Of a DNA stretch of 64,000 nt, positions 5,948 to 15,724 are shown piece by piece. The notes beneath the pieces are model-generated. The model did not search any database, had not been told where the DNA came from, and saw only the letters and a list, made by a program, of their open reading frames with translations. The stretch is from Natronospira proteinivora (lineage in GTDB: Bacteria > Pseudomonadota > Gammaproteobacteria > Natronospirales > Natronospiraceae): the NCBI RefSeq assembly GCF_024170465.1, contig NZ_JALJYF010000002.1:558001-622000 (forward strand), given 5' to 3'. Each line of letters starts with the position of its first letter. Positions within the stretch are counted from its first letter, which is position 1. The position numbers were made by a program, and so were the translations under genes.

Positions 5948-6347
5948 ATGAAAATCGAACACGAAGGTCACGAAGAAAGGCAGAAGGACACGAAGGAAAA
6001 AATGGCTGGCAGTCCCGCATCCGTAGGAGCGGATTTATCCGCGATTGGGCCTCGGGGATGTATAGAAGGCTCGAAATTTTGAACACGGAGTGCACGGAGG
6101 ACCACGGAGATCACGGAGGGGATGAATGGGGGGCTATTAGGTGTGGGAGCGGCGTCCGCCGCGAATTGGGGATCTATCTGCCTTGATCGCGGCGGACGCC
6201 GCTCCCACGGCATAGTTAAACTCCGTGCCCTCCGTGGTTCTCCGTGATCTCCGTGTTAAATCCCCAAACCTGAATCCAACAAGGCAGCATCTACCGCCCC
6301 TGCACCCAACAGTATTACTCCTTCGTGTCCTTCGTGTTCGATTTTCA
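5948..6347. repeat. Mosaic palindromic intergenic element 2
   Basis: The gap between convergent comF and lysAC is a symmetric nested structure. In order: CACGAAG repeats (5955-5998), the GTAGGAGCGG hairpin (6023-6046), CACGGAG repeats (about 6082-6119), the GTGGGAGCGGCGTCCGCCGC hairpin (6143-6164), then the inverse of that hairpin (6185-6208), inverse CACGGAG repeats (about 6220-6257) and inverse CACGAAG repeats (about 6322-6345). The two halves could fold into one long hairpin. Nothing coding is supported here. Confidence 0.88.
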
Positions 6348-8956: not shown

Positions 8957-8998
8957 TCTGTTACTCCTGAGTCTTGCTTGTGATTGGGTCTTGGGTTT

Positions 8999-9022
8999 AT
9001 CGCGGATGAATCCGCTCCTACG
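8999..9022 (-). repeat. Solitary GTAGGAGCGG-type REP-like hairpin
   Basis: Reads GTAGGAGCGGATTCATCCGC-like on the minus strand, the same module as in the four mosaic elements. It lies alone in the lysAC leader, between the attenuator-like terminator and the lysAC ribosome-binding site. Confidence 0.75.
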
Positions 9023-9051
9023 GGTGGCCCATAGTTGATTATTCAGGACAT

Positions 9052-9079
9052 AAAAAAACCGGCGCAGAGGCCGGTTTTT
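9052..9079 (-). terminator. Rho-independent terminator in the lysAC leader (attenuator)
   Basis: On the minus strand the stem ACCGGC-ctctgc-GCCGGT, with A5/T5 extension, is followed by a run of seven T. It lies about 95 nt upstream of the lysAC start and downstream of the Lys-rich leader peptide. The 5' half, CCGGC, can pair instead with GCCGG at 9096-9092, an antiterminator that excludes it. The A-run also makes it usable on the plus strand. Confidence 0.8.
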
Positions 9080-9103
9080 CGGAACAGATTTCCGGCATGC
9101 AAA

Positions 9104-9178
9104 TCAACGGGCAGGGAACAGCTTTTTGCTGTCTGCCTCCTGTTTCACCCGTTTGCATTTGCTGGTCATGCTGCGCAT
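9104..9178 (-). CDS. Candidate lysine-rich leader peptide of lysAC
   Basis: A 24-codon frame begins at the ATG at 9178 with AGGA 7 nt upstream and ends TGA at 9104. It starts MRSMTSKCKRVKQEADSKK and ends LFPAR, with five lysine codons (AAA/AAG) in fifteen positions, one pair adjacent. The segment ATGCAAACGGG (9158-9148), which spans two Lys codons, can pair with CCCGTTGATTTGCAT (9111-9097). The same downstream segment continues into GCCGG, which can pair with the 5' half of the terminator. That 1:2 / 2:3 / 3:4 layout is the classical amino-acid attenuator. A structured RNA without translation is the alternative. Confidence 0.55.
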   Translation of the reverse strand: MRSMTSKCKRVKQEADSKKLFPAR

Positions 9179-9243
9179 GGCTTGGTCCTGTTCGGAAATA
9201 TTGTTCAGTCATAAGCCCGGGTACGGTGAACCCGGGCGGCGCT

Positions 9244-9273
9244 ACTTTACGCCCATTTTCAGGGCTGAGGCAA
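9244..9273 (-). promoter_or_regulatory. Possible promoter of the lysAC leader transcript
   Basis: On the minus strand TTGCCT (9273-9268) and TAAAGT (9249-9244) are separated by 18 bp, each matching four of six consensus positions. Transcription would start near 9237 and produce a leader of about 185 nt to the terminator. The first part contains a GCCCGGG...CCCGGGC hairpin (about 9215-9238). The match is moderate. Confidence 0.35.
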
Positions 9274-9281
9274 GGAAATTC

Positions 9282-9840
9282 TGACACGAAGGACACGAAG
9301 AAAGGCAGAAGGACGCGAAGGAAGACAATGGCTGGCGATCTCGCATCCGTAGGAGCGGATTCATCCGCGATCGGGTCTCGGGGTGTATAGCGGGTTCGGT
9401 GTTTTGAACACGGAGGACACGGAGAAGCCACGGAGAGCACGGAGGGTATAAATGTGGCGGCTGTAGGAGCGGATTCATCCGCGATTGGGTTTTGGGGGTG
9501 TAGCGGGTTGGGCCTTTGGAACACAGAGGGCGCGGAGGATCCGCAGAGATCACAGAGGGGTTATTTGTGAAGGTAACATCGCCTTGTGGGAGCGGCGTCC
9601 GCCGCGATCAATAGCGAGCTGGCTGGAAGTCGGGGCAGGAATGCCCCTCCCACAGCTAAGGCCTTGCCCATTTCCCCCTCCGTCTCCTCCGTGGCTTCTC
9701 CGTGATCTCTGTGTTCTTAAATAACCAGCCCTCTATGGCCCCGCAGGCCTATCGCGAATGAATTCGCTCCTACGGATACAGAACCGCTAGCCATTCTTTC
9801 CTTCGTGTCCTTCTGCCTTTCTTCGTGTCCTTCGTGTCAC
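9282..9840. repeat. Mosaic palindromic intergenic element 3 (longest copy)
   Basis: A 559-bp element whose ends are near-perfect 50-bp inverted arms: GACACGAAGGACACGAAGAA onward at 9282, with its complement ending at 9840. Inside are GTAGGAGCGG hairpins at 9349-9372 and 9463-9486, CACGGAG-type repeats after each, one GTGGGAGCGGCGTCCGCCGC hairpin at 9586-9609, then inverse CACGGAG repeats (about 9680-9716) and an inverse GTAGGAGCG-type hairpin (about 9752-9774). It separates the LPP20 gene from the lysAC leader. Open frames across it are translated repeat. Confidence 0.88.
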
Positions 9841-15319: not shown

Positions 15320-15724
15320 CACGAAAATCGAACACGAAGGGATTGTAATGTTGCTGGGCTACGGGGCGGTTGATGCTGTCTTGTTGGATTCGGGGTTGGT
15401 AATTTAACACGGAGATCACGGAGGGCCACGGAGAACACGGAGTTGAATTGGGTGCGGGCCTATCGTAGGAGCGAATTCATTCGCGATGATTCTGTGGGCA
15501 GTGGGAGCGGCGTCCGCCGCGATCAAAGGGCAAACCCTCTGGCAATCGCGGCGGACGCCGCTCCCACAAACTCCCATTCATCCACTCCGTGCCCTCCGTG
15601 GTTCTCCGTGATCTCCGTGTTCCAATAAACCAACCCTCTACACCCGCCGAGACCCGATCGCGGATAAATCCGCTCCTACGGATGCAGGGTCACCAGCAAT
15701 ATTTCCCTTCGTGTTCGTTTTTCA
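15320..15724. repeat. Mosaic palindromic intergenic element 4
   Basis: This fills the gap between the convergent transporter and ubiA. In order: a short CACGAAGG arm (about 15322-15342), CACGGAG repeats (about 15406-15442), a GTAGGAGCGAATTCATTCGC hairpin (15465-15484), a GTGGGAGCGGCGTCCGCCGC hairpin (15500-15523), its inverse (15545-15566), inverse CACGGAG repeats (about 15583-15622), an inverse GTAGGAGCGG hairpin (15656-15679) and an inverse CACGAAGG arm (about 15706-15722). Module order differs from element 2, showing that modules are shuffled within a constant mirror symmetry. Confidence 0.87.

Follow-up and report, generated by a model that had tools for sequence, protein, structure and literature searches.

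Transcription of the lysAC gene of Natronospira proteinivora is likely to be controlled by ribosome-mediated attenuation in response to charged Lys-tRNA. The gene, which encodes a bifunctional aspartate kinase/diaminopimelate decarboxylase, occupies positions 8956-6368 on the minus strand of the window (the whole stretch of 64,000 nucleotides that was analysed), and its product was identified by the NCBIfam equivalog NF006515 (1157.6 bits) together with four Pfam domains. When lysine is plentiful, a ribosome would read a leader of 24 codons to its stop and cover the sequence GCCGG (region 2), such that the 3:4 terminator would form and transcription would stop before lysAC. When Lys-tRNA is scarce, the ribosome would stall on the Lys codons of the leader and leave region 2 free, and pairing of region 2 with CCGGC (region 3) would block the terminator and allow lysAC to be transcribed.

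The leader open reading frame (ORF) lies on the same strand as lysAC, as do the other elements of the leader, and runs from an ATG at 9178 to a TGA at 9106-9104. It encodes the peptide MRSMTSKCKRVKQEADSKKLFPAR, with Lys at codons 7, 9, 12, 18 and 19 (five of 24), and AGGA at 9189-9186, seven nucleotides 5′ of the ATG, is its candidate Shine-Dalgarno sequence. An earlier, sequence-only reading of this DNA had claimed a five-Lys ORF of this length upstream of a lysine-synthesis gene, which turned out to be right base for base, the gene being lysAC. The stop codon is separated by 27 nt from the intrinsic terminator (9076-9052, -10.7 kcal/mol), which consists of the stem AACCGGC/GCCGGTT (9076-9057) and a T-run (9058-9052); that reading had placed its 3:4 terminator here. 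The two further pairings that it had drawn are likewise present at the coordinates it gave: region 1 (ATGCAAACGGG, 9158-9148), which overlaps Lys codon 9, with its partner CCCGTTGATTTGCAT (9111-9097), which spans the stop codon, and region 2 (9096-9092) with region 3 (9074-9070), the latter being both the 5′ arm of the terminator and the antiterminator partner.

Upstream of the ORF, a consensus scan of the window gave no convincing promoter for this leader; a possible, weak one consists of TTGCCT (9273-9268) and TAAAGT (9249-9244) with 18 nt between them. A G+C-rich hairpin, GCCCGGG/CCCGGGC, lies at 9237-9215 and was not seen in the two sister species.

In both of these, the other available species of the genus (G001 and G002), the ORF and the terminator are also found directly 5′ of lysAC, the leader peptides being MRFISKCKPAIKEAGSDVLFIAR and MIGMCAKRKVEKKEVSKKLGSAR, respectively. 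Indels within the ORF are 3 nt each in the three-species alignment, those after the stop codon are 1, 2 and 4 nt long, and the stop itself occupies one shared site as TGA, TGA or TAG. These multiple-of-three indels and the alternating stop codons point to translation of the leader ORF. Invariant in the three species are a KxK motif, the C-terminal AR-stop and the block GCCGGAAA; the conserved blocks outside the ORF and the terminator are short. The check in related genomes that the earlier reading had asked for came out in its favour: the ORF and the terminator are kept in all three, the Lys codons less well, G001 having only three. G001 is the weakest case also for the repeat DNA that separates its terminator from lysAC; this stretch of some 250 nt (L003, 1300-1500) contains long inverted repeats and looks like an inserted mobile element. 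No clear Shine-Dalgarno sequence precedes the ORF of G002. Beyond the genus, a search found no relatives of the peptide: one candidate (G037, E = 1.06) was rejected for its internal stop. A locus with weak DNA similarity to the leader (L006) was discarded because it falls within the terminal part of a coding gene.

How the RNA would switch can be judged from folding calculations. With a ribosome modelled at Lys codon 19, RNAfold gave a 2:3 stem in each of the three species, at -8.2, -8.8 and -7.8 kcal/mol, which holds while region 4 is still untranscribed; with the ribosome modelled at the stop codon, the terminator was the only structure remaining in all three. When region 4 has been transcribed, 2:3 is less stable than the terminator, and the switch model therefore needs co-transcriptional timing, on which other attenuators likewise depend. 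The 2:3 stem of five pairs, which the earlier reading had singled out as the weakest part of its model, never varies in the genus and for this reason receives no support from covariation, and its duplex energy in Natronospira was not significantly above that of shuffled sequences. With respect to the check by conservation and covariation proposed for these pairings, the Natronospira antiterminator is conserved and shows no covariation. The 1:2 stem exists as drawn in N. proteinivora, and the sister species use other partners there. A further structure beside 1:2, 2:3 and 3:4 is a hairpin within the ORF (GGCAGACAGC...GCTGTTCCCTGCC, 9137-9110), which RNAfold predicts in all three species and whose loop, AAAAA, consists of Lys codons 18-19.

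Within its order, the fused lysAC was found only in Natronospira; the 16 genomes from outside the genus gave separate LysA-like matches or none. A fused LysAC is present in 104 of 147 genomes of another gammaproteobacterial order, and the gene may have been acquired from outside Natronospira's own order. We read 214 distinct lysAC upstream regions, and 88 of them have a terminator at most 260 nt from the KFGG motif. A scan that was blind to Lys content (TTGA, a spacer of 16-18 nt, a -10 element and a short ORF 4-9 nt after it) found a sigma-70-like promoter with an ORF at the likely +1 position in 64 of the 214, together with a terminator in 63 of these 64. The spacer measured 17 nt in 62 of the matches, and in 62 the start codon lies 6-8 nt past the -10 element, so that in these regions the first base of the mRNA is probably also that of the leader ORF. 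The leader of N. proteinivora itself is probably not leaderless.

Lys-enriched leader ORFs with terminators occur 5′ of lysAC in other gammaproteobacterial families as well. Over nine equally weighted leader groups, in which a few ORFs were picked with their Lys content in view, 14.1% of residues are Lys, which compared with shuffled ORFs (z = 11) makes it the most enriched amino acid, followed by Met (z = 5.5), with Arg at expectation. In the Lys-blind scan, the Lys fraction was 10.3% at the 15 loci outside the f164 family and 6.6% at the 48 loci within it; the LysAC proteins themselves contain 1.5-2.9% Lys. Fisher tests on the lysAC regions beyond the genus are indicative only, the genomes being related. 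In f183 and f188 leaders, the final ORF codons contain region 2, which pairs with the terminator's 5′ arm, clearly above shuffles in L184, L227 and L141 and marginally or not significantly elsewhere. Such a layout would be expected if ribosomes stalled further upstream freed region 2 and ribosomes completing the ORF masked it. The f21 genomes (L042, L052, L057) were not counted, since they have a terminator before lysAC but their Lys-rich ORF is a conserved small gene with no leader ORF between. This small gene, of the VKKGPAAWSKLEDVLAEKRLQKALQEFDVD type, adjoins lysAC upstream in these three loci and in L046 and L060, with a terminator after it in three.

These findings bear on the alternative that a small protein gene or small RNA with a terminator of its own happens to lie upstream of lysAC, and that the lysAC promoter is downstream of 9052. 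Such an arrangement would agree with the conservation of the ORF as a peptide and with the situation in G001, where the ORF starts 8 nt past the stop codon of the upstream gene and is 250 nt away from lysAC. However, the ORF stays beside lysAC in the three Natronospira species while other neighbours change, the likeness of the peptides is concentrated in the Lys residues and at the ends, and many unrelated Lys-containing peptides occupy the same place before lysAC elsewhere. We therefore regard a separate small gene as unlikely, and attenuation through the leader peptide as the better account of this ORF.

The f164 leaders belong to the other order. In an alignment of 50 of them (A1, helices 1, 2, 4 and 5 used), the 1:2 helix covaries, with two-sided changes in five of its 10 pairs and 97.6% of cells paired (far lower in slid controls), and a second covarying helix follows the stop codon; pairing in the 2:3 helix reaches 97%, and covariation there is slight. 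Where the start column holds ATG, GTG or TTG, the frame is open up to a conserved ARQR in 40 of 41 leaders, and where it holds no start codon, four of nine frames are closed. Lys occurs six codons before ARQR in 36 of 45 leaders and three codons before it in 34 of 45. With a covariance model, the f164 leader was detected as a single copy in each of 21 among the 147 genomes of that order; in two of these, which lack the fusion, the RNA stands directly 5′ of a lysA-like gene. These two genomes and L197 have kept the RNA but not the full ORF. It follows that part of the function of the f164 leader may not depend on the peptide, which limits the use of this family as evidence for the mechanism in Natronospira. 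The model matches neither the Natronospira leader nor those of f183 and f188, and we therefore do not claim a single homologous element.

The f164 RNA is strongly structured and contains the invariant GGCGCGCCAGAGG (in L314 and L315, with CCAGAGG at oriented position 1570, and in L197). Its AGAGGUGCG recalls part of the lysine riboswitch; the RNA carrying it has no match in Rfam. A second alternative is that the leader RNA binds lysine or another ligand directly, in the manner of a riboswitch, with the ORF being secondary. The covariation of the f164 RNA, its invariant loop and its survival of ORF loss would fit such a mechanism. For Natronospira we nevertheless think it very improbable: a search of the window and ten related loci against Rfam gave nothing above threshold for the lysine riboswitch (RF00168), a T-box or any other leader, the f164 model misses the Natronospira leader, and there the frame of the ORF is kept and conservation outside it and the terminator is limited to short blocks. 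A broader, speculative idea, to which we assign a rather low probability, is that in several families of Gammaproteobacteria the leaders of lysAC and lysA form an unreported class of lysine sensors, in which leaderless peptides and a conserved structured RNA (with GGCGCGCCAGAGG in f164) would act together and the RNA would regulate alone where the ORF has been lost. If so, an f164-type RNA acting alone would represent a new kind of RNA that responds to lysine and has no relation to the L-box.

The attenuator proposed by the sequence-only reading is thus supported by conservation in the genus, by the Lys-enriched leaders found elsewhere and by the lack of a riboswitch or T-box match; we infer the regulation itself, that is, translation of the leader, ribosome stalling and the switch, as well as a promoter upstream of the ORF. 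Leader-peptide attenuation is textbook knowledge for several amino acids, and lysine is assigned to riboswitches and T-boxes. The remark in that reading that lysine is normally under riboswitches agrees with the literature, where a survey lists L-box riboswitches for lysine and attenuators for his, thr and phe (PMC1262725). Like the classical proteobacterial attenuators (trp, his, leu, thr, phe, ilv), the lysAC leader combines a short ORF rich in codons for the end product with hairpins predicted to be mutually exclusive and an intrinsic terminator 5′ of a biosynthetic gene; it differs from them in that the control amino acid is lysine and that the ORF seems to be leaderless in related families. 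With the L-box (RF00168) it would share a leader terminator as the means of controlling lysine genes, but the L-box works through a large aptamer that binds lysine directly, and this has no match here.

Two leader peptides of Sinorhizobium meliloti resemble it in single respects. The trpL peptide is translated from a leaderless transcript (PMC10117765), as we suppose for lysAC leader peptides in the other order, although it concerns tryptophan in an alphaproteobacterium and the Natronospira leader probably does have a 5′ leader of its own. The same paper proposes SEP5, with six Thr and three Lys codons, as a leader peptide before aspartate dehydrogenase (PMC10117765); it resembles the present ORF as a short frame with clustered Thr/Lys codons before an aspartate-family gene, but the description there does not include an attenuator structure. 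In a search that covered open-access literature we found no report of a leader-peptide attenuator for lysine, and its priority is accordingly not certain. On the best explanation, what is novel is lysine as the control amino acid, the attenuation mechanism itself being classical. If lysAC is preceded by a conserved attenuator with Lys codons, this would close the lysine gap among leader-peptide attenuators and would explain how lysine could be sensed in bacteria with a fused lysAC and no L-box. The many natural variants of the leader, several of them apparently leaderless, allow tests of which attenuator features are essential.

The Lys content of the leader was also set against the genome, in 464 kb of N. 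proteinivora sequence. This contains 45 terminators and 32 units of a short ORF with a terminator, 17 of which have a downstream gene; apart from the lysAC leader, none of the 32 reaches five Lys codons or 20% Lys. The 161-nt leader folds with z = -3.7, beating 200 of 200 dinucleotide shuffles. That a random short ORF happens to precede an ordinary terminator here is conceivable, as dispersed repeats abound in the flanking DNA, which has evidently been rearranged, but we consider this very improbable in view of the frame, stop position and terminator conserved in three species and of a Lys content unique in 464 kb. Among the dispersed repeats is the palindromic TAGGAGCGGATTCATCCGCG, of which the window holds eight copies with none expected (1011-1030, 6024-6043, 9001-9020, 9350-9369, 9464-9483, 9753-9772, 15466-15485 and 15659-15678), and the copy at 9020-9001 sits between the terminator and lysAC.
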